A DNA stretch of 46,784 nucleotides from Phycisphaerae bacterium (lineage in GTDB: Bacteria; Planctomycetota; Phycisphaerae; Sedimentisphaerales; UBA12454): contig JAPLMW010000002.1 in NCBI GenBank assembly GCA_026386845.1, positions 1 through 46,784 on the forward strand, written 5' to 3'. A program made the translations under genes and the position numbers. This document shows, one piece after another, positions 72 to 42,961 of the stretch. Position 1 is the stretch's first letter. Each line of letters begins with the position of its first letter. The notes beneath the pieces are model-generated. The model searched no databases. It worked only from the letters and a program-made list of their open reading frames with translations, and was not told the DNA's origin.

Positions 72-100
72 GAGTAATCCGTGAAATCAGTGGTTAAAAA
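72..100. repeat. Interspersed repeat, GTGAAATCAGTGG family
   Basis: The block GTGAAATCAGTGG(T/C)TAAAAA recurs at 3827-3846, where it forms the start of a pseudopilin gene, and in reverse orientation near 26168-26200. Here it sits just upstream of the first pseudopilin gene. It contains an in-frame GTG at 81 that could act as an alternative start. Confidence 0.6.
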
Positions 101-125
101 ACAGTTATTATTGAAAGGTCATAAG

Positions 126-1118
126 ATGGAAACGAAAAAGACAAAATTTGGGTTCACCATCGTCGAGCTTCTGACAGTTATGGCAATTATAGCTCTTCTG
201 CTGACTATTCTTGCACCTGCCCTTCGTATGGTGCGCAGGATTGCCAAGGATACGGCTCAAAGAGCGCAGTTTCACAGTATTGATGTTGCGCTGGAAACCT
301 ACTCCGGCGAAACGGAACAGTATCCCGATTCTACCATAAGGCCTTCGGTAGGCGGCGACCCGACAACCAGCACTGCTCCTTTTACCGTTGGCGCTCATCA
401 TTTGGCCGAGGCACTTCTCGGCAGGGATATGCTCGGTTTTGACCCGTGGACTACCTGGGATGCGAAGGCGGATGACCTTAGCCATGATATATATGCCGCC
501 AAGCCCCCGTCTCCGAAGAATTCTAATGACGCCGAGGTTGTCAAAAGTCTTGACCGCAGAAAAGGCCCCTATTTAAGTCCTGACAGTGTAGAAGCATATC
601 AGATTGCTCAGTTATATACCGATACTGCCGTCGGCACCGGCGATGTCTATCCCGGCAATCTTAGTAATACCGGCGTCATTAACAATATTTACTCTCCCGC
701 CCCTGTTCTTACAGATTCCTATCGGGTTAAGGCAGTATCCCTGCCAAACGGCAGGCAGGTAAAGGCAGGCTCACCGATTCTTTATTACAGGGCAAATATT
801 TCATCGAGAGTGTTTGAGAATGGAACTACAATGCCATCGGGTGTAACGGATGTCTGCTCTGTGGCCGGTATCTACAACAGTTTTGATAATGAAGAATTGC
901 TGGCGCTTGGCACCGTAGCGGACCAGAGCAAAATGCATAATTTTAATAAGGATGAAGGCGGGGCATTAGCGGGACGCACCAAGTTTTATGATATGATTAC
1001 GAATCCTACAATTACGACTCAGGTCCGGCCTTTCAACCAGACGAGCTACATCCTTATGTCGGCAGGTTTCGACGGCATATTTGGAACGCCGGATGACGTT
1101 TATAATTTTAAGAATTAG
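126..1118 (+). CDS. Type II secretion/type IV pilus-like pseudopilin (GspG-like)
   Basis: Pseudopilin with a short basic leader METKKTKFG. The predicted prepilin peptidase cleavage is Gly|Phe, followed by FTIVELLTVMAIIALLL with Glu at +5 and one N-terminal membrane helix. The globular part (about 290 residues) carries motifs shared with the next gene: an EQYPDS-like stretch, RRKGPYL, PILYYRAN and a C-terminal SAGFDGIFGTPDD. I chose ATG 126 because AAAGG lies 7 bases upstream. The upstream in-frame GTG at 81 falls in an interspersed repeat and would add 15 residues. The Asp-rich C-terminal end matches the calcium-site region of major pseudopilins (family knowledge). It is the first of six pseudopilin genes in a row. 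No ATPase, secretin or prepilin peptidase gene is in the window, so a pseudopilus role is inferred. Confidence 0.8.
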   Translation: METKKTKFGFTIVELLTVMAIIALLLTILAPALRMVRRIAKDTAQRAQFHSIDVALETYSGETEQYPDSTIRPSVGGDPTTSTAPFTVGAHHLAEALLGRDMLGFDPWTTWDAKADDLSHDIYAAKPPSPKNSNDAEVVKSLDRRKGPYLSPDSVEAYQIAQLYTDTAVGTGDVYPGNLSNTGVINNIYSPAPVLTDSYRVKAVSLPNGRQVKAGSPILYYRANISSRVFENGTTMPSGVTDVCSVAGIYNSFDNEELLALGTVADQSKMHNFNKDEGGALAGRTKFYDMITNPTITTQVRPFNQTSYILMSAGFDGIFGTPDDVYNFKN

Positions 1119-1124
1119 AAAAAG

Positions 1125-1199
1125 TAGCCACAAAGACACTAAGGCACCAGGGAAAAAGGATATATTGAAAAACTTCGTGTCTTTGTGACTTAGTGGCTA
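1125..1199. repeat. 75-bp imperfect inverted repeat (TAGCCACAAAGACAC family)
   Basis: The left arm TAGCCACAAAGACACTAAGG pairs imperfectly with the right arm ending GTGACTTAGTGGCTA, with about 25 bases between. It fills the gap between the first two pseudopilin genes. The right arm supplies a GTG (1193) in frame with the second gene. Confidence 0.65.
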
Positions 1200-1219
1200 A
1201 AGTTAAAAAGGGTGTAAAA

Positions 1220-2236
1220 ATGAAGACCGAAAAATTCAGGGCGTTTACCCCCACACCAATATGTGTTGTTGGTGAACAGGTAAACAATATGCAAAAACAG
1301 GTTCATCGGCAAATATCCAACTTTCTTGCTTCATACAAATTGGTGAGGGGGTTTACGCTGCCGGAGCTTTTAACGGCGATAGCTATAATCGCGATTCTGA
1401 TAGGGGTTCTTATGCCTGCTCTGTCGCAGGTAAAAAGAATCGCAAAGGAAACTAAGCAAAAAGCGCAAATCGGCAGCATCGAGATGGCTATAATGATCTA
1501 TAAGCAAGATACTGGCGCATACCCGCCGTCCGAGGGTTATAATTTGGGCATATCTAATAATTATTCTTACTGCGGCGCTCAGACTCTCGCCGAGGCTATG
1601 TTCGGCCAGGACCTGCTCGGCTTTCACGTCGAATCAGGTTATGTCAATGAAGGCAAAGACAACACTGTTCCCGATACATCCAAACTTTATATCTATACCG
1701 GGATACAAGATGCAAACAGGGATGTGAGCCTGAGCAAACGCAAAGGGCCTTATCTTGACAGGACAAATATCAGCGTATTTACACTTGGCCAGATATTTAA
1801 TAAAGACACTTATACTTCAAATTTTATAGTATCAGACAGATATGTTATATGTGATGTCTTTACCGCGGTAAATAGAAGTAGCGGCGTGAAAAATTATAAA
1901 ATCGGCACACCCATCCTGTATTTCAGGGCGAATCCTTCTGCGGTAAATACGGAACTTATCCCCAGTACCAATGTGAATGACCATCCGAAGAACATCTATA
2001 ACTATATGGATAATTATCGGCTTATGGCTCTCAAGAGCGTAGCTGATGGGAAAGACCATCCTCTGTGGAGTTCTACTATTGACAGTGGTAAGTTTTGCGG
2101 TTTTATTGGCGACCCCCAGATTTCGAACCTTACAAGGCCTGTTCGGCCTGATTCGTTCCTTTTGATTTCGGCCGGCAATGACGGTTTATACGGCACAAAA
2201 GATGATATCTGTAATTTTGACCCTAATTTACCGTGA
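1220..2236 (+). CDS. Type II secretion/type IV pilus-like pseudopilin with repeat-expanded leader
   Basis: Paralogue of the preceding pseudopilin. The mature part starts FTLPELLTAIAIIAILIG after the glycine of KLVRG, followed by one membrane helix. It shares KRKGPYL, PILYFRAN and a C-terminal SAGNDGLYGTKDD with its neighbour. ATG 1220 is preceded by AAAAAGGG at a spacing of 7. GTG 1193 is possible but lies in a repeat. The leader from 1220 is 44 residues, far longer than the usual 5-25. The excess comes from a 108-bp in-frame insertion bounded by inverted repeats (1243-1356). Removing it would leave MKTEKFRA directly before FTLPELL. Secretion-pseudopilus role is inferred from family and neighbours. 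Confidence 0.78.
   Translation: MKTEKFRAFTPTPICVVGEQVNNMQKQVHRQISNFLASYKLVRGFTLPELLTAIAIIAILIGVLMPALSQVKRIAKETKQKAQIGSIEMAIMIYKQDTGAYPPSEGYNLGISNNYSYCGAQTLAEAMFGQDLLGFHVESGYVNEGKDNTVPDTSKLYIYTGIQDANRDVSLSKRKGPYLDRTNISVFTLGQIFNKDTYTSNFIVSDRYVICDVFTAVNRSSGVKNYKIGTPILYFRANPSAVNTELIPSTNVNDHPKNIYNYMDNYRLMALKSVADGKDHPLWSSTIDSGKFCGFIGDPQISNLTRPVRPDSFLLISAGNDGLYGTKDDICNFDPNLP
1243..1356. mobile_element. MITE-like inverted-repeat element inside a pseudopilin leader
   Basis: The left arm ACCCCCACACCAAT (1247-1260) and right arm ATTGGTGAGGGGGT (1339-1352) match at 13 of 14 pairs. The hexamer GTTTAC flanks the unit at 1243-1248 and 1351-1356, exactly 108 bases apart (36 codons). The right arm encodes V-R-G|F-T, so it provides the cleavage-site glycine. 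A related element lies at 4402-4511. It carries no transposase, so any mobility would need help in trans. Confidence 0.6.
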
Positions 2237-2406
2237 TGAAAAAAAGAAGCAAGGAAGTAAAGAAGCAGGGAAGCAGGGAAAAACCAGTCGGCGTTCTTTA
2301 CATCCTTACCTGTCCTGAGCAGAGTCGAAGGACATCCTTATTTCCTTACTTCTTTAAAGGATATAGATAGAAGCGGCTAATGGCAGTCAATTTGAGATTA
2401 TGAAAA
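2237..2406. repeat. Intergenic repeats, including a 26-bp unit at 2309-2334
   Basis: The gap holds a purine-rich AAGAAGCAAGGAAGTAAAG stretch opposed by a CCTTACTTCTTTA stretch, forming a loose inverted repeat. Within it, the 26-bp unit at 2309-2334 (core CTGAGCAGAGTCGAAGG) is repeated identically in reverse complement at 29084-29109. No gene is seen. Confidence 0.6.
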
Positions 2407-2919
2407 ATGATAATAAAATTAAGACATACCGGCCTGATTCGGCAAGCTCACAGCGGGCTGACGCTTATGGAGATTCTGGTCGCTATTATGATAATAGCGA
2501 TTCTGGCCGCGGGGTTATATTCCGTCAGCAATTACGTTGAAAAACAAGCCCAAGCAAAACTTACCGAATCGACAATCGAAATTCTTTCCGCCGCCATCGA
2601 ACAGTATCACGACTTCTACGGCAAATTCCCCGATATTACTGTTGCCAGTGATTATCCTGCCAACTGCGACGGTATAGAAAGATTGTATTACAAGCTTTCT
2701 CTCGCTCCTGACGCGAAAAATATATTAAATCAGATAAATTCTTCAATGATAAAAAATGTTGATAAGAACGAATTGCCGCAAATTTATCTGGAGATTGTTG
2801 ACATCTGGGGGACGGATTTTAGATACAGCTATAACAGCGGCGATAATTTTCCCTTAATAGAATCAGCCGGGCCGGATAAAAATTTTAATACCCCTGCGGA
2901 TAATATCTCCAGCAAGTAG
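2407..2919 (+). CDS. GspG-like pseudopilin
   Basis: Small pseudopilin of 170 residues. The leader MIIKLRHTGLIRQAHSG is followed by LTLMEILVAIMIIAILAAGL (Glu at +5) as the membrane helix. The body has the EQYHDFYGKFPD motif typical of major pseudopilin GspG, and ends in SAGPDKNFNTPADN, matching the GspG C-terminal calcium-site pattern. Part of the leader is encoded by ATTCGGCAAGCTCA (2442-2455), which matches the repeat inserted in mcsA at 10573-10605. A TTGAGA stretch about 8 bases upstream is the only ribosome-site candidate. Of the six, this best fits a major pseudopilin. Confidence 0.8.
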   Translation: MIIKLRHTGLIRQAHSGLTLMEILVAIMIIAILAAGLYSVSNYVEKQAQAKLTESTIEILSAAIEQYHDFYGKFPDITVASDYPANCDGIERLYYKLSLAPDAKNILNQINSSMIKNVDKNELPQIYLEIVDIWGTDFRYSYNSGDNFPLIESAGPDKNFNTPADNISSK

Positions 2920-2971
2920 CAATTTTAAATTTAATACTCTGTGTTCTCGGTGTTCTCTGTGGCAAAAAAAA

Positions 2972-3757
2972 ATGAACTCTGTGGCTAAAAAAAAACTGAA
3001 ACAGCAAACCTCAAACGGCTTTTCGCTGGTGGAGCTTCTTGTTGTGCTTGTGATAGTCGCTTCGCTGGTTGCTCTTTCGATACCTGCGATAAACGCGATG
3101 CAGAAATCTTTCGGCTCTACCGGCGCAGAAGGAATGATTAGCGCAGCTTTGTCAACCGCAAGAACATTAGCAATCAAGAACGGCCATTACGCCGGCGTCA
3201 GATTCCAAAAAGCTTACGATGTGAAAGGTCCGCTCGAAGCAAATCAGTATATGATTTTTATAATTAATGATGAAGATATGGGCACTCTTACGGACGCATT
3301 TCGTGCCATTGAAGGATATAAACCCATAAAATTACCGGAAAACACCGGCGCTATGGATATGAGCAAGATTACTAAAGACAGTGATATTGTTGATGCATGT
3401 GTGGTTGACGCAACTGCTTTTTCCATAATTTTTTCATCTGCCGGAAAACTTGTAATTCACGACGTTCAGACGAGAAATAAAGATGGCAAATACAGGCCTT
3501 CAGGACTTACTGGTGTAAATGGTTCAGATGATAAAGTTTTTAATTCTGTACCGAACATCACCGTCAACAATACCGGCCAATTTGTTCAGGATGATTATCC
3601 TATTGATGGTCTTGATAAGGAGCAAAGCCGCAATAAATTTGTAATTTATGATTGTGAAAAATTCAGCAGGTTGGATGTTAATAATCGTTATTCGAAATAT
3701 TTGAAATACTTGAAATTTATTTATATCAACGCTTATACCGGCGAGATTATTAAGTAG
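2972..3757 (+). CDS. GspH-like pseudopilin
   Basis: Pseudopilin of 261 residues with leader MNSVAKKKLKQQTSNG and mature start FSLVELLVVLVIVASLVAL (Glu at +5), then a body without a recognised enzymatic motif. The N-terminal pattern with IPAINAMQKSFG and SAALSTARTLAIKNG resembles GspH/FimT minor pseudopilins. The first eight codons lie in a CTCTGTGGCTAAAAAA interspersed repeat, itself a second tandem unit after a copy at about 2938-2970. The basic lysine leader is therefore repeat-encoded. No clear ribosome-binding site precedes the ATG. Confidence 0.75.
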   Translation: MNSVAKKKLKQQTSNGFSLVELLVVLVIVASLVALSIPAINAMQKSFGSTGAEGMISAALSTARTLAIKNGHYAGVRFQKAYDVKGPLEANQYMIFIINDEDMGTLTDAFRAIEGYKPIKLPENTGAMDMSKITKDSDIVDACVVDATAFSIIFSSAGKLVIHDVQTRNKDGKYRPSGLTGVNGSDDKVFNSVPNITVNNTGQFVQDDYPIDGLDKEQSRNKFVIYDCEKFSRLDVNNRYSKYLKYLKFIYINAYTGEIIK

Positions 3758-3826
3758 TCGTTAGTCGCTGGTCGATAGTCGTTAGTAAAAAGAAAAAAAT
3801 AAAATTAAAAATTATCTGAGAAATCT

Positions 3827-4403
3827 GTGAAATCAGTGGCTAAAAATAGCGGTTTCTCTTTAACTGAGGTCTTAATGGCCGTGGGCATTCTTTCTATCGC
3901 TATGATGCTTATAGCCACGATGTTTCCGGTCGCGATTTACCTGACTTCTGTCGCGTCCGAAAGGACAATGGCCGCGATTGTCGCGGATGGGGCTTTTGCC
4001 AAGATTCAGCTTTACGGCGTTGACCCCTGCGATGACCCTTGTGCTTGTATTGATTATGAAAATGAGCTTGTCAGCAAGGGGAAAATCGACCCCAAAAAGA
4101 CCTAAAGTTACCGCCATTGATGTGGAGAATGTGCCGGGTGAACCGAACGACAGGCTGAAAATTTCGGAACCAAACAAGGCAAAATATGTCAATCCGCGGA
4201 CAACGATATTCGATACCAGGACAGGTCAGCTCTACCGTGTTGCTGATAAGATTGGGATTGGTAATATTGACGCCAATATTGTTACGCTTGATAGGAACTG
4301 GGACGCAACCCCGCAGCCGCGTCCTGTCTGGCTTATACCGCCGCCTGATACCGGCGGAAGAAACGCGGGTATTGAAGTATATCAGAGAATAATAAAATTT
4401 TAA
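3827..4403 (+). pseudogene. GspI/PilV-like pseudopilin interrupted by a frameshift
   Basis: The first part (3827-4105) reads MKSVAKNSG then FSLTEVLMAVGILSIAMML (Glu at +5), a clear pseudopilin start from a GTG codon. It ends early after GKIDPKKT. The following frame continues the plausible body from about 4080 to 4403 (PKRPKVTAIDVENVPGE onward, ending QRIIKF). The switch falls at homopolymers GGGGAAAA/CCCCAAAAA near 4077-4097 and would need one base removed. It could be a sequencing or assembly indel, a true lesion, or less likely programmed frameshifting. The start codons lie within a copy of the GTGAAATCAGTGG repeat. Confidence 0.65.
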
Positions 4404-4511
4404 CCCCCACACCAATGTGTTGGTCGGGGAAAAGTATTTAAGAGAAAAAATAAAAATGAAATCATTATCAAAAAAGAAATATTTAAGAATTAATACATTG
4501 GTGTGGGGGTT
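4402..4511. mobile_element. MITE-like element with perfect 17-bp inverted repeats
   Basis: The left arm AACCCCCACACCAATGT (4402-4418) is the exact reverse complement of the right arm (4495-4511), with 76 bases between. It overlaps the stop codon of the frameshifted pseudopilin at its left end. At its right end it encodes V-W-G|F-T of the next pseudopilin, so the start codon, leader and cleavage glycine of that gene come from the element. It is related to the element at 1243-1356. Confidence 0.65.
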
Positions 4512-5379
4512 TACAATAATGGAGCTTTTGGTAGCGGTTGGTCTGCTTGCGGTTGTGCTTGCGGCGACGGGAATGATTTTTCGTTATTCAATAGACGCCC
4601 AGAGAACAGCCGCCTCTACCGCGGAAATGATGCATACCCTCCGGGCCATTACAGACCAGCTTAATTCCGACTTTGCCGGTCTGCGGGAAGATGGATACCT
4701 CGTTTTGCAGTCCGACGACTCAAACAGTGCGGTATATTTTTTCAGTACAGGCGATTTTCAATCGTGGTATGACCCGACTGTAAAGTCAAATATCGTGCGC
4801 GTTTATTTAGGTCCGGCCGGAAATGACCCCAATAACCTGGCATTAGATATGCGGCTCTTAACTCCCGGCAACATTCCTACTCCGGGCCGCAAACTTGATT
4901 ATAACGATGTCAGTTTTGCACAGTGTCAGGCCAATATCGCATCTTTGGAAAATCCCAATGCCGTGCTTTCCACCGACAGGCCGGATATTAATATGGCCCG
5001 TGACCCCAATGATGCCAGGAGGCTTTTGGCTCAGAAAGTCGGCAGTTTTAAGATTGAGTGGACTTATGGCTGGGTCCGTTCGAGTGCCATTAACCAGATA
5101 GTATGGTGGGGTTTCCCTAATGCTTTGCAGGATGAAACCAGCCTCACAGAGCCGAACGGTACTGTGATAGATTTACTATCCGGTAAAATAGGCCAGATAG
5201 TTACTGCTATTAATGAAACTAAAAATGCAGGTCCGCCGCCATATTACGCGGTCTATTGGGACCCCGCTAATCCGCAGTATTGGCCGAAGGCTCTGAAGTT
5301 TACGTTTACGCTTTACGACTCCAGAGGCCTGTTTAAAAACGGCAGAAAGTTTGAACATATTGTTTATATTGGAAAATAA
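4456..5379 (+). CDS. GspJ-like pseudopilin
   Basis: Pseudopilin with leader MKSLSKKKYLRINTLVWG and mature start FTIMELLVAVGLLAVVLAATGM (Glu at +5). The body resembles GspJ minor pseudopilins, with an early Arg/Thr-rich helix, RRLLAQKVGSFKIEWTYGW and a terminal KFTFTLYDSRGLFKNGRKF strand. I prefer ATG 4456 because it gives a normal 18-residue leader. GTG 4417 in the same frame would add 13 residues and lies in the left arm of the inverted-repeat element. GspJ works with GspI and GspK in a pseudopilus tip complex (family knowledge), which fits the gene order here. Confidence 0.75.
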   Translation: MKSLSKKKYLRINTLVWGFTIMELLVAVGLLAVVLAATGMIFRYSIDAQRTAASTAEMMHTLRAITDQLNSDFAGLREDGYLVLQSDDSNSAVYFFSTGDFQSWYDPTVKSNIVRVYLGPAGNDPNNLALDMRLLTPGNIPTPGRKLDYNDVSFAQCQANIASLENPNAVLSTDRPDINMARDPNDARRLLAQKVGSFKIEWTYGWVRSSAINQIVWWGFPNALQDETSLTEPNGTVIDLLSGKIGQIVTAINETKNAGPPPYYAVYWDPANPQYWPKALKFTFTLYDSRGLFKNGRKFEHIVYIGK

Positions 5380-10470: not shown

Positions 10471-11066
10471 TGCATCGCCTTTAGCTGGTCCCGCAGTTTT
10501 GCGGCAAGCTCGTAATCTTCATTTCGCACCGCCTGCTCAAGCTGTTTTTCGAGTTCTTTCACTCGTGGTGAGCCTGCCTGCCCTGAGCTTGCCGAATGGG
10601 TCGAATCCATTTCATTTTCAGTTTTTATTTCTTTTTTATCCTTCGTAGTATCGCTGCTGGATGCTGTCTGTGACTCGACGGAATTTGTTGAAGTCGATAT
10701 GCCGCCGGGGATTTTTCCTTTGTGTGTCAGGTTGCCGTCGTGGGCTTTTTCGATAATCACCTGCAGGTTCCGTTCGAAAATTTCATAATCCTTCGGACAG
10801 CCAAGCAAAGCCTGTTTGCGGAATATCTCCATAGTCATGCCGCAAACCGGACAGCTTTTTTCTGCTTCACCCCGGCCTTGCTCGTCGGGCTGCTGATGTG
10901 CGGCTATCAGGGAACCTAAAAGTTCGTTGAGCGAAAGCTGGCTTTTTATTGTTATGCCTTCTTTTTGTGCGCAGCTCTGGCACAGGTGACTTTCAGTTCG
11001 CTGGCCGTCAATTATCTCGGTCAGATGAACTGTCGCGGTTCGGGTTTTGCAAATATTACACTGCAT
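10467..11066 (-). CDS. mcsA: McsA, zinc-binding activator of the McsB arginine kinase
   Basis: 199 residues. The N-terminal zinc-finger region has CNIC (3-6), CQSC (29-32) and CPVC (about 72-75). The fourth motif, usually CxxC, is reduced to one cysteine (GCPKDYEIF). The C-terminus carries a UVR/coiled-coil motif (KELEKQLEQAVRNEDYELAAKLRDQLK). Between them is a low-complexity Ser/Thr/Lys linker. In it residues about 154-165 (STHSASSGQAGS) are encoded by an interspersed repeat (10573-10605). McsA activates McsB (family knowledge) and the overlap with mcsB supports pairing. Confidence 0.9.
   Translation of the reverse strand: MQCNICKTRTATVHLTEIIDGQRTESHLCQSCAQKEGITIKSQLSLNELLGSLIAAHQQPDEQGRGEAEKSCPVCGMTMEIFRKQALLGCPKDYEIFERNLQVIIEKAHDGNLTHKGKIPGGISTSTNSVESQTASSSDTTKDKKEIKTENEMDSTHSASSGQAGSPRVKELEKQLEQAVRNEDYELAAKLRDQLKAMQ
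10573..10605. repeat. Interspersed repeat in frame inside mcsA
   Basis: The unit with core CCCTGAGCTTGCCGAATGGG belongs to the family seen at 2442-2455 (ATTCGGCAAGCTCA) and, more loosely, at 17476-17499 (TCCTTCGGCAGGCTCAGG). It adds about 11 codons to the mcsA linker without breaking the frame. Confidence 0.6.
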
Positions 11067-11162
11067 AAGTCTTTGTCTATAAATAAGTTATATACAAACC
11101 TGTTTTCCTGCCATTACTAATATCGGCAATAAAACTATAGGACTAAACGGATGATTTTTCGT

Positions 11163-11225
11163 CCCGTTAGAAACAAGGCATTTATGATGCCTGACGGCTG
11201 CCAAAGGTAGCCCGTTTCTAACGGG
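11163..11225. repeat. 63-bp palindromic element, copy 1 (at the queD stop)
   Basis: Bounded by CCCGTTAG and CTAACGGG, with two internal hairpins (GGCAT/ATGCC and CTGCC AAA GGTAG). It aligns over its full length with copies at 16783-16845 and 42593-42655. Its right arm contains the TAG stop codon of queD (11218-11220 on the minus strand). Confidence 0.85.
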
Positions 11226-11586
11226 ATTCGCCGTATCTGGTTTTGCAGCCCGGCGTTTCCGTTACTTCTACATATAGCAAATCGATATTTTTAGGCAACT
11301 GGCTTTTTATACTGTCGTAAATATATCGGGCGACATTTTCAGCGGAAGCATTGGTATTTTCAAAGCATTCTAAATCTTCCAGTTTCCGCCCGTCAAGCCG
11401 GCACACTATGCTTTCCAGAATTTTTTTGAGCTTATTAAAATCGAAAAGCAAACCATTATCGTCGAGACCCTGGCCGCCGACAGCCGCTTCAGCTTTCCAG
11501 TCGTGCCTGTGACAGGATTCCGTCATATCAGCGAATTTAAGCTGATGGCTCGCGCGAAAATTTGTTGTTACGGCTATTCTATACAA
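11218..11586 (-). CDS. queD: QueD/6-pyruvoyltetrahydropterin synthase-family protein
   Basis: 122 residues, the size of QueD, which makes 6-carboxytetrahydropterin from dihydroneopterin triphosphate in queuosine synthesis. Zinc ligands appear as the His of FRASHQL and both His of CHRHDW. DFNKLKKILES, LECFENTNASAENVA and the terminal VTETPGCKTRYGE match the family. The catalytic Cys normally sits four residues before the HxH. Here the only Cys lies directly before it, so activity toward the usual substrate is uncertain. The stop codon falls inside a 63-bp palindrome. The gene overlaps coaD by 13 bases. No other queuosine gene is near. Confidence 0.82.
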   Translation of the reverse strand: MYRIAVTTNFRASHQLKFADMTESCHRHDWKAEAAVGGQGLDDNGLLFDFNKLKKILESIVCRLDGRKLEDLECFENTNASAENVARYIYDSIKSQLPKNIDLLYVEVTETPGCKTRYGESR

Positions 11587-15981: not shown

Positions 15982-17412
15982 ATGAGAATATCGGTTGAAG
16001 AGGTTTTTGAGACGGTAAGGATGACTATCGAGCAGAATTTCGATATCAGGACTGTTACGCTCGGCGTCAATCTTAAAGACTGTATTGACAGGAACCTTAC
16101 GGCCTTTAACAAAAGAATTTTTAAACGTATTTCCGAGATGGGCAAACGTCTTAACAAATGCGCCGACCAGCTCGAGCAGAAATACGGCATACCCATTACG
16201 AACAGGCGAATAAGCGTAACGCCGGTTGCGCTGCTTATTGAGCCGCTGCCGAGAAGAATCTCAACTGCTGTATCAGTCGCCAAAACGCTCGACAGGGCCG
16301 CAAAGGCGGCGGATATTGATTTCATCGGCGGATTCGGCGCTCTCGTTCATAAAGGTATGACTGGCGCTGATGAACTTTTGATAGATTCTATTCCGCAGGC
16401 TATATCGCAGACGCAGAGACTATGCGCTTTTCTTAATCTGGCTTCCAGCAGGGCGGGTATGAATATGACTGCTATTGAAAAGGTCGGGCATATCATTAAA
16501 GACCTTGCCGCAAAAAGCAAAAACGGCATTGGCTGCGCGAAGCTTGCCGTATTTGCCAATGTGCCGGAGGACAATCCTTTTATGGCAGGCGCCCATCACG
16601 GAATTGGCGAACCGGACTTTTCATTAAATATCGGCATATCAGGCCCCGGCGTGGTTCGTGATGTCGTTGCGAACAATCCCAAATGTGATTTAACTGCTTT
16701 GTCGGAGGTTATAAAGAGGACTGTTTTTAAGATTACGCGAGCAGGCGAGCTTGTTGGCCGGGAAATTGCGCAAATGATGAATCCCGTTAGAGACAAGACA
16801 TCAAAGATGTCTGACGGCCGCCAAAGGCGACCTGTCTCTAACGGGATGAAGGTTGATTTCGGCATAGTTGATATTTCGCTTGCCTCGACGCCAAAAAGAG
16901 GAGATTCGGTAGCTGAAATAATTGAAGCTATGGGTGTATCGCGTATTGGCCGTCCGGGTTCGACCGCCGCCCTTGCGATGTTAATGGATGCGGTAAAGAA
17001 AGGTGGTGCTATGGCATCTGGAAATGTCGGGGGGCTGAGCGGCACGTTTATTCCAGTAAGTGAAGATGCCGGTATGATAAAAGCAGTTCAAACAGGAGCG
17101 CTTAGCCTTGAAAAACTTGAAGCCCTCACAAGCGTTTGTTCTGTAGGCTTAGATATGTTTGCGGTTGCAGGAGACACGCCGGCGGATGTTATAAGTGCTA
17201 TACTCGCTGATGAGCTTGCAATCGGCGTTGTGAATAATAAGACAACAAGCGTGAGAATTATACCGGTGCCGGGGAAAAAGGCGGGACAGATTGTTCATTT
17301 CGGAGGACTGTTAGGCTCGGCGCCAATTATGAGAATCTCGAAAATTGCTTCGCCGGATTTTATAAAACGCAAAGGCCGAATCCCAGCCCAGGTCGGGGCG
17401 TTAAGAAATTAA
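15982..17412 (+). CDS. UPF0210/DUF711 (PFL-family) protein with in-frame palindrome insertion
   Basis: 476 residues from ATG 15982, which has AAAGGAA 6 bases upstream. The family normally has about 450. Conserved stretches are IGGFGALVHKGMT, AFLNLASSRAGMNMTAIEKVG, FANVPEDNPFMAGAHHGIGEPD, ISGPGVVRDVV, DFGIVDISLASTP, GRPGSTAALAMLMDA and GNVGGLSGTFIPVSED. Biochemical function is not established for the family. Residues 267-288 (NPVRDKTSKM...RPVSNG) come from a 63-bp palindrome and have no place in the family pattern, where the segment before DFGIVD is short. The same frame is open upstream through the HNH-AP2 gene. No UPF0237/ACT partner gene is adjacent. Confidence 0.88.
   Translation: MRISVEEVFETVRMTIEQNFDIRTVTLGVNLKDCIDRNLTAFNKRIFKRISEMGKRLNKCADQLEQKYGIPITNRRISVTPVALLIEPLPRRISTAVSVAKTLDRAAKAADIDFIGGFGALVHKGMTGADELLIDSIPQAISQTQRLCAFLNLASSRAGMNMTAIEKVGHIIKDLAAKSKNGIGCAKLAVFANVPEDNPFMAGAHHGIGEPDFSLNIGISGPGVVRDVVANNPKCDLTALSEVIKRTVFKITRAGELVGREIAQMMNPVRDKTSKMSDGRQRRPVSNGMKVDFGIVDISLASTPKRGDSVAEIIEAMGVSRIGRPGSTAALAMLMDAVKKGGAMASGNVGGLSGTFIPVSEDAGMIKAVQTGALSLEKLEALTSVCSVGLDMFAVAGDTPADVISAILADELAIGVVNNKTTSVRIIPVPGKKAGQIVHFGGLLGSAPIMRISKIASPDFIKRKGRIPAQVGALRN
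16783..16845. repeat. 63-bp palindromic element, copy 2 (in frame in the UPF0210 gene)
   Basis: CCCGTTAG...CTAACGGG with inner hairpins GACAT/ATGTC and CGCC AAA GGCG. Same length as copies 1 and 3. Stem positions that differ from copy 1 do so in pairs (GGCAT/ATGCC versus GACAT/ATGTC). It encodes 21 residues read in the same frame as copy 3 in rnpA. Confidence 0.85.
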
Positions 17413-42522: not shown

Positions 42523-42961
42523 AAAGCCGCTGTCCCTTCTCAGCAAGTTCCATAAAGCTTTGCCTGACTTCGTTTAAGGTGATTTTCTTTATCCCGTTAG
42601 AAGTAGGCTGCCTTGGGCAGCCGTCAGGCATCTTTGATGCCTTACCTCTAACGGGATTTATATCAGAACGGGACCATTTCGACAACATTGGAGAATAGAT
42701 TAAAAGATAATCAAAGCCGGCCGCAATCTCGTTTTGGCTCAAACGGAATGCCTCTCTGGCAAGCCTTTTGAGTCTGTTTCTGATGACTGCGGGGGCGGTT
42801 TTTGCGCTTATGGAGGCGGCAAATCTTGACCTTGAGGCACCGTTAGGAGCCATATGTAAAGTCATTAAGTTGTTTTTGGCAAACAACTTATAATCCAAAA
42901 CCGCCCTGAAATCGGATTTTGAAGTCAGCCTTGCAGATTTTGGAAATCTATATTTTGGCAT
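42500..42961 (-). CDS. rnpA: Ribonuclease P protein component with in-frame palindrome insertion
   Basis: 153 residues, against the usual 110-125. RnpA binds RNase P RNA and helps mature tRNA 5' ends. Seen: FPKSARLTSKSDFRAVL, AASISAKTAPAVIRNRLKRLAREAFRLSQ (RNR motif) and DYLLIYSP. Residues about 102-124 (NPVRGKASKM...PTSNG) are encoded by a 63-bp palindrome placed between the central fold and the last helix (LNEVRQSFMELAEKG). rpmH, normally upstream, is not present. pntB ends 77 bases upstream. Confidence 0.92.
   Translation of the reverse strand: MPKYRFPKSARLTSKSDFRAVLDYKLFAKNNLMTLHMAPNGASRSRFAASISAKTAPAVIRNRLKRLAREAFRLSQNEIAAGFDYLLIYSPMLSKWSRSDINPVRGKASKMPDGCPRQPTSNGIKKITLNEVRQSFMELAEKGQRLFEKRHNK
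42593..42655. repeat. 63-bp palindromic element, copy 3 (in frame in rnpA)
   Basis: CCCGTTAG...CTAACGGG, same length and layout as copies at 11163-11225 and 16783-16845. Outer-stem bases differ from the other copies in a paired way (GGTA/TACT versus GACA/TGTC). It is read in the same frame as copy 2. Confidence 0.88.

Follow-up and report, generated by a model that had tools for sequence, protein, structure and literature searches.

The first 8.5 kb of contig JAPLMW010000002.1 of a Phycisphaerae bacterium (assembly GCA_026386845.1) contain six consecutive prepilin-type genes with repeats in or next to their 5' ends, which raises the question of how mobile DNA can lie inside the coding part of such genes and what becomes of the peptide it encodes. 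The window analysed here is this whole contig, 46,784 nucleotides long, designated C11 in a 2.4-Mb draft genome (G000) of 96 contigs. Two unrelated families of small palindromic elements, named A and B, were found inserted at the Phe(+1) codon of prepilins in this and other genomes. From their arrangement in the DNA, we consider it probable that they are mobile palindromes, comparable to the Rickettsia palindromic elements (RPEs), and that they lie in frame at this codon, so that their peptide would be removed together with the leader and the mature protein would be unchanged. A previous inspection of the same letters (hereafter the sequence-only reading) had proposed that unrelated mobile repeat families enter prepilin leaders repeatedly and that the cleavage of the leader is the natural reason for their tolerance, and our data agree with both proposals.

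Palindromic elements at the prepilin Phe(+1) codon

Family A is an inverted-repeat element of ~105 bp, the arms of which (CCCCCACACCWAT) have 65 matches in the genome with at most 2 mismatches versus 5 for a reversed-pattern control. Its length varies from 97 to 128 bp in this genome and from about 27 to 131 bp in others. Thirty copies, defined as arm pairs within 150 bp, were obtained from fetched loci, leaving aside arms without a partner and two longer copies, one of 175 bp (C83) and one of 301 bp with a GIY-YIG gene; as all copy counts rest on patterns, diverged copies are missed. Identical 4-bp flanks, mainly TTTA/TAAA, were observed in 12 of the 30 copies versus 19% of shuffled pairs and correspond to a target-site duplication.

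A profile search (E up to 1) gave 33 places with the prepilin motif in the genome, and element A is present in six of the 33 leaders read, those of genes 2 and 6 of the window and of the genes at C44:10949, C65:103480, C72:13475 and C73:15568. In all six, the Phe(+1) codon of the cleavage site follows directly on the last base of the element, and in five of them the part upstream of the element still reads as an ordinary prepilin leader (MKTEKFRA/FT, MREARKRNG/FT, MKWVFKKILLQYRKA/FT, MKIRRLKPA/FT and the C65 leader, which itself carries a family B element; here and below the slash sets off the cleavage motif). The order after insertion is old leader, TTTA, element, TTTA and mature protein, TTTA being the Phe codon and the first base of the next one. 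Prepilin peptidase needs a Gly before Phe(+1), and the last triplet of the element, GGG (GGA in C65), supplies Gly(-1) in every case, six for A and two for B, among all the leaders read here. The element and one duplication together measure 108 bp in five of the six A cases. TTTA is found at the Phe codon of 25 of the 33 prepilins; against ~6,500 non-coding TTTA/TAAA sites, a number scaled from 789 sites in 290 kb of stretches chosen around prepilins, a simple model predicts 0.11 copies at these 25 sites, and six of the 30 were seen (P 2e-9, or 1e-7 with five, one pair being merged).

A wider set of prepilin A inserts was collected with a pattern fixing the right-hand end and the prepilin motif and leaving the left arm and the frame free; since the patterns used for other genomes fix the GGG/GGA bases, the regenerated Gly of those genomes is not independent evidence. 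Prepilin genes of other genomes were assigned by motif alone, with simple calls of open reading frames (ORFs). Among the 22 inserts measured, other phyla included, 18 are open from the left arm and 20 have a length divisible by three, versus 9 of the 24 copies outside prepilins (p 0.0002 for length). Selection may act on the frame of the inserted copies. The gene-side arm encodes LVxG, with the consensus LVWG, and five of the six prepilin copies of this genome have Arg(-2) (TGG to AGG/AGA), the same Arg-giving base being present in 2 of 48 arms of the other copies (p 4e-5). This Trp-to-Arg change is a mark of selection on the translated end in this genome and is not general, the corresponding residue being Lys once and Trp twice in G009, an uncultured planctomycete bin of the same family as the source genome, and Leu in G010. 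The ratio of non-synonymous to synonymous substitutions (dN/dS) of the shared inserts does not clearly distinguish the true frame, the sites being too few.

Family B is a palindrome (CCCGTTAGAGAC...GTCTCTAACGGG) first seen at C65 and C26:5997; it is mostly 65 bp long, or 69 bp (23 codons) with the duplication, and its arms have 62 matches in the genome with at most 1 mismatch versus 1 for the control. Identical 4-bp flanks, among which TTCA, TGAA, TAAA and TTTA are favoured, occur in 24 of the 35 rows used (from a list of 40 that includes alternative pairings of one element and one false row; L133 is counted twice) versus 9% of shuffled pairs. The element is in frame in 15 of 15 long ORFs selected for a large spanning frame, with a peptide, mostly of 23 residues, that reads NPVRDK...PVSNGM one way and IPLET...SLTG the other way. 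At prepilins it reads ...(G/A)FTPLE...SLTG/FTLVE or similar, and this end fused to the prepilin motif was found at 23 places in 9 of 98 relatives, this genome included. Twenty of the 23 places were fetched and three were not. At 18 of the 20, including one in this genome, the insert lies in a prepilin-type gene as judged from the motif; of the remaining two, L234 is described below and L245 has no such gene. Together with the C65 copy, which lies outside the fetched set, prepilin B inserts amount to two in this genome and 17 in relatives. Seventeen of the 18 are multiples of three, the exception (L249) being probably due to a misplaced left arm, and all 18 printed peptides are open from the left end. 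In five genomes, 15 prepilin B inserts were seen alongside 219 exact ends of arm B and 288 prepilin motifs; a rough calculation, in which 14% of the genome was guessed to be tolerant and prepilins were counted with E up to 1 in this genome and 0.05 in the others, predicts ~0.8-1.7.

Two family B copies lie at other N-termini. At L234 (G056 C3:52683), the insert is N-terminal in a gene that is not a prepilin (FTHLHLHSQYSLLDGA) and that by its motif looks like dnaE (DNA polymerase III alpha). The L130 copy (G000 C69) occupies residues 25-47 of its frame inside what is by eye an apparent Sec signal peptide, another cleaved leader.

Orthologous sites and occurrence in other lineages

Comparison with related genomes reveals both empty and alternatively occupied sites. 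The orthologues of gene 2 have a short insert-free leader in G009, G006 and G002 (MKTGEKK/GFTL and MKAEKIK/GFTL are among these leaders), a family B element in G008 and another repeat in G004. The gene at C26:9501, matched by eye, has no insert here, and its counterpart carries A in G009 and B in G004. The C65 gene carries A here and in G009, and only here is a B copy (C65:103322) nested in the left duplication of A; the A insert shared by the two orthologues (81% identity versus 67% to the next copy) was probably inherited. The C44 insert is nearest to the insert of a different G009 gene. The 38 insert-bearing genes form 15 clusters by mature sequence (BLAST, C72 left out as too short), which indicates that many insertions are separate; one cluster holds 14 genes, and some of its inserts may have been inherited. 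At C72:13475-13616, the 5' part is like one and the 3' part like the other of the genes at C44:10949 and C96:938, the two parts being joined at the A element; a recombination through the element, or a strain mixture in the bin, is possible.

When one genome per species was scanned for the exact pattern TTGGTGWGGGGNTTTACNNTNNTNGAR, 13 matches were obtained in 84,980 species, 12 of which are prepilin frames with LVWG/FT and the left arm; the remaining one, in Galbibacter, stops after ten codons. The 12 cases belong to Parcubacteria, Nomurabacteria, Sungiibacteriota, Zambryskibacteria, Giovannonibacteria, Ratteibacteria, a planctomycete and two further bacteria, so that family A prepilin inserts exist in Patescibacteria and in other lineages. 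Two of the inserts are tiny (33 and 36 bp including the duplication), their arms having almost nothing between them. Ten such genomes contain the exact 12-base arm 2 to 22 times and the controls 0 times, and in the loci shown the arms frequently form short hairpins; as these genomes were picked by the motif, they are uninformative on the rate of insertion into prepilins. The class to which the genome of L191 belongs has a family A match in 8 of 383 genomes. Among four new matches in this class, L222 and L228 look right (the left arm of L228 is poor), L223 is a non-prepilin and L224 is without a left arm.

Some family A arms enclose other contents. A GIY-YIG nuclease gene (PF01541) lies between them in two phyla, at L055 (G000 C33:7080-7380) and at L209 (C3:56507-56792 in the genome of L191), and this form is a candidate for the autonomous version of the element. 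At L213, near position 1501, the arms surround a tRNA-like gene, as read by eye. Upstream of the L179 insert, another palindrome (CCCCAGCACTAAC...GTTAGTGCGGGG) adjoins TTTA in the same leader region and by eye is apparently nested.

Proposed mechanism and alternative explanations

We propose that small palindromic elements without a gene of their own, such as A and B, would insert with a 4-bp duplication, for which prepilins would offer a suitable target in their Phe(+1)-Thr(+2) codons (TTY ACN), the insertion duplicating TTYA. The gene would keep its own start and its old leader down to (G/A)-F-T, followed by the element in frame, and translation would probably still begin at the old start. 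The last triplet of the element, GGG or GGA, would provide Gly(-1), and the second TTYA would provide Phe(+1), leaving the mature protein with Glu(+5) and its hydrophobic segment untouched. Prepilin peptidase would then cut after the new Gly, and the peptide of the element would leave with the leader without a scar. The elements may still be mobile at present.

Several points weigh against this reading. Both the production of the peptide and the cleavage at the second site are predictions from DNA. The excess at prepilins is larger than tolerance alone would predict for either family (6 versus 0.11 for A, 15 versus ~0.8-1.7 for B), and the flanks, read by eye, contain no longer target motif around the 4-bp duplication. 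In gene 6, L179, L190 and L222, no in-frame path is open from the left arm, and translation has to begin within the insert or elsewhere. Within this genome alone, the difference in frame is weak (5 of 6 versus 9 of 24, p 0.06), and among the 22 inserts are two pairs of orthologues as well as L179 and L182, two genes from a single genome whose inserts are similar. The 12 cross-phylum cases all keep Trp, though the pattern allowed Arg. Two B genes of the 14-gene cluster, from different genomes, are 87% identical in their mature part. Finally, a partner transposase of the kind expected for miniature inverted-repeat transposable elements (MITEs) is not known here, none having been searched for. 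As to the excess, its most likely cause is tolerance combined with a better survival of translated copies, the latter being favoured because copies elsewhere have more decayed flanks (identical in 7 of 24 cases versus 5 of 6 at prepilins); a benefit to the host may be a further cause.

The excess could also be due to a true hot spot, in which a recombinase would prefer the prepilin site itself (GGNTTTAC, for example structured DNA around GG-TTTAC) and the leaders would be a designated harbour, like tRNA genes for islands. The occupation of 25 TTTA sites by 6 of the 30 A copies, against an estimated 6,500 non-coding sites, would be explained in this way, as would the presence of two unrelated families at the same codon, of A in other phyla as well, and of different elements in genes of one family in different species. 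However, inspection by eye of the flanks of copies outside prepilins reveals no preference past the 4-bp duplication, 24 of the 30 A copies of this genome lie elsewhere, and we hold a hot spot to be possible but rather unlikely. Spread by duplication or gene conversion among prepilin genes, in place of separate insertions, is an improbable origin for the inserts as a whole. It finds support in the cluster of 14 out of 38 genes with its 87% identical pair, in a stretch, identical after a gap, that C44 and C72 share, and in two gene pairs whose inserts are more alike than their mature parts (82% v 74% and 84% v 66%), but the 38 genes represent 15 mature-sequence clusters with differing old leaders, one codon can hold A in one genome and B in another, and the six A copies at prepilins in this genome fall by similarity into at least 4 groups. 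The elements of genes 2 and 6 have common 13-bp arms, with one base differing in the right arm of gene 2; their interiors are little alike and neither is among the four nearest copies of the other. That no mobile element is involved, and that the leaders merely vary or overlap terminator hairpins at gene starts, is scarcely credible: the arms are able to pair and short hairpin forms exist in other genomes, yet this explanation is contradicted by the 4-bp target duplications and the insert-free orthologues, as well as by in-frame copies in unrelated long ORFs and by like arms around different contents.

The sequence-only reading had favoured recruitment of the repeats as start-plus-leader cassettes, which would supply a start codon and a lysine-rich leader. 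As a general account we consider this rather unlikely: an older leader runs on in frame into 18 of the 22 A inserts and into every one of the 18 B inserts, and most inverted-repeat inserts lie in an existing leader. The proposal fits genes 4, 5 and 6. Gene 6 probably starts inside its element, and, to judge from the open frames, a start inside the insert is also likely at L179, L190 and L222. The gene 6 element belongs to a subfamily of 10 copies, 6 of which carry an ATG and a mostly Lys-rich frame ending in LVWG (MKSLSKKKYLRINTLVWG, MKMKDCERQYSRFRTLVWG and MKFVSKRQFTLVWG are examples), five of the 6 lying at sites other than prepilins; among the 20 other A copies, 1 has such a frame. Four of the 10 members are without such a frame, and the subfamily was set by nearest neighbours after some frames had been seen, which makes this comparison a lead and not a test. 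Genes 4 and 5 start in repeats of another kind (GTGGCTAAAA), and there is a fair case for GTGG(C/T)TAA repeats as their start and leader: several kinds of them lie near the gene 4 start in 5 of 10 orthologues, with close variants in 2 more, and a repeat with this ending supplies the start of gene 5. Such repeats are also found at other starts or at none. Fourteen of 19 copies of GTGAAATC(A/T)GTGGC begin no frame longer than 64 aa, and the frames of 131-318 aa that start in three others are without a prepilin motif in the 20 residues printed, so that GTGG repeats are not special to prepilins and the idea that all the repeats first noticed form one phenomenon is rejected.

Returning to insertion in frame with removal by the host, comparison with known systems helps to place it. 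RPEs are small palindromic repeats often present in frame inside unrelated protein genes, each with a recognisable peptide (reviewed in PMC10969869). Family B matches that description closely through its in-frame insert in the selected long ORFs, family A being in frame mainly in prepilins. The hosts differ, and the prepilin cases lie at one codon with a predicted removal along with the leader; we know of no removal of RPE peptides from their products. The ORF fusions of enterobacterial repetitive intergenic consensus (ERIC) and repeat unit (RU) sequences are likewise mobile repeat units joined in frame to genes, but they are described as single predicted Sec-type signal peptides without recurrent codon-exact insertion that rebuilds the cleavage site. 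With bacterial MITEs, families A and B share their shortness, a target-site duplication, the lack of an internal transposase gene and terminal inverted repeats that recur across the genome (65 arm matches and 30 pairs for A, 62 matches and 35 rows for B), whereas some A arms enclose a GIY-YIG or tRNA-like gene. Inteins and self-splicing introns also reside at conserved positions within genes without altering the mature product, but they remove themselves, whereas removal here would depend on the host prepilin peptidase. By titles and abstract openings, two publications concern coding palindromes (PMC2996958 and PMC6649704), and we found none on palindromic or inverted-repeat elements in prepilin leaders, most subscription journals being outside the search.

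An insertion at a conserved coding site normally destroys the gene unless the element splices out, and in the present case a processing step of the host may remove the insert. This would explain odd long leaders in the annotation of prepilins, provide a natural archive of insertions kept in frame, and lead to a testable prediction, that of unchanged mature pilins; it raises the question of whether other cleaved leaders, such as the apparent Sec case of L130, harbour mobile DNA likewise. As a rather unlikely extension of this reading, one could go further and see the element as using the host prepilin peptidase as its remover, its ends (CCC...GGG by TTYA) rebuilding the site and one subfamily bringing start and leader along, with prepilin genes as a safe harbour found independently by unrelated families in several phyla.

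The gene cluster of the window and its repeats

The features of the cluster are collected in the table. The gene order fits what is presumably a type II secretion pseudopilin operon, and the next gene after the six encodes 1025 aa and has a helix-hairpin-helix match slightly below the cut-off. Five of the six exceed the Pfam cut-off for the prepilin N-terminus (PF07963) in a profile search; gene 6, with 17.6 bits, is below the cut-off in one search and has no match in another, and the motif WGFTIMELL is present. The T2SSG match of gene 2 (20.9 bits) is slightly below the cut-off of 21. The gene 6 element folds as a 20-bp stem (z -3.2), and its flanks are non-identical, TTAA (4400-4403) and TTTA (4510-4513).

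Table. Prepilin-type genes and associated repeats at the start of the window (positions in the window; a dot marks features without strand; TSD, target-site duplication).
Feature	Position	Strand	Remarks
GTGAAATCAGTGGTTAAAA repeat, upstream of gene 1	73..104	+	GTG 81 unlikely as start
Gene 1, prepilin-type	126..1118	+	likely start ATG 126, METKKTKFG/FTIVELL; orthologous leaders
Inverted repeat AGCCACAAAGACACTAAG and CTTCGTGTCTTTGTGACTTAGTGGCTAAA	1126..1201	.	directly upstream of gene 2
Gene 2, prepilin-type, GspG-like	1220..2236	+	MKTEKFRAFT-[element A]-KLVRG/FTLPELLTA; PF07963 26.5 bits
Left 4-bp duplication TTTA, gene 2	1244..1247	+	old Phe-Thr codons of leader MKTEKFRA/FT
Element A copy, gene 2, 104 bp	1248..1351	.	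arms CCCCCACACCAAT and ATTGGTGAGGGGG; stop-free; with one TSD 108 bp = 36 codons
Right 4-bp duplication TTTA, gene 2	1352..1355	+	Phe(+1) of mature protein; preceding element GGG = Gly(-1)
Gene 3, prepilin-type	2407..2919	+	leader MIIKLRHTGLIRQAHSG/LTLMEIL includes piece of another repeat
ATTCGGCAAGCTCACAGCGGGC, gene 3 leader region	2437..2458	+	inverted match to 10576-10597
Two repeat units GTGTTCTCTGTGGC + ACTCTGTGGCTAAAA at gene 4 start	2950..2990	+	
Gene 4, prepilin-type	2972..3757	+	start ATG within CTCTGTGGCTAAAA repeat: MNSVAKKKLKQQTSNG/FSLVELL
CTGTGAAATCAGTGGCTAAAAA repeat, start and leader of gene 5	3819..3850	+	
Gene 5, prepilin-type	3827..4105	+	start GTG in repeat, MKSVAKNSG/FSLTEVL
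Element A copy, second subfamily, gene 6, 106 bp	4404..4509	.	arms CCCCCACACCAAT and ATTGGTGTGGGGG
Gene 6, pseudopilin-like	4456..5379	+	start ATG within element A: MKSLSKKKYLRINTLVWG/FTIMELL

The repeats that the sequence-only reading had named in or next to the 5' end of all six genes are all found where it placed them, give or take a few bases, the repeat of gene 1 being probably outside the ORF. Its unit GTGAAATCAGTGG has three occurrences in the genome, two of them at 81 and 3827 of the window; GTG 81 is rejected as the start of gene 1, the orthologous genes having short leaders that begin at the equivalent of ATG 126. The start of gene 4 inside a repeat at 2972 and the repeat piece reported at 2442 in the gene 3 leader were both recovered; the leaders of gene 3 in two relatives are MKNKKLQFG/FTLAEML and MRNLHSQFG/FTIVEIL. 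As for its view that inverted-repeat elements form the leaders, this fits gene 6, the element of gene 2 sitting inside an older leader that starts at ATG 1220. Repeats are enriched at prepilin starts relative to other starts, 13 of 33 versus 31 of 211 having at least 15 bases covered by repeated 13-mers within a 140-bp stretch (Fisher one-sided p=0.0015), with a repeat library drawn from prepilin-centred stretches and the loci fetched for families A and B, hence biased towards these, and with simple ORF calls as the comparison starts; the equal frequency that would have spoken against recruitment was thus not observed. For element A, the excess described above is far greater.

The open frame of gene 5 breaks near 4085-4105 (window 4060-4120) and its remainder runs to 4403 in another frame, through a frameshift or an assembly error. 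Further along, the window contains family B copies at 11162-11226, 16782-16846 and 42592-42656, the one at 16782 (L061) being in frame in a 709-codon open frame.

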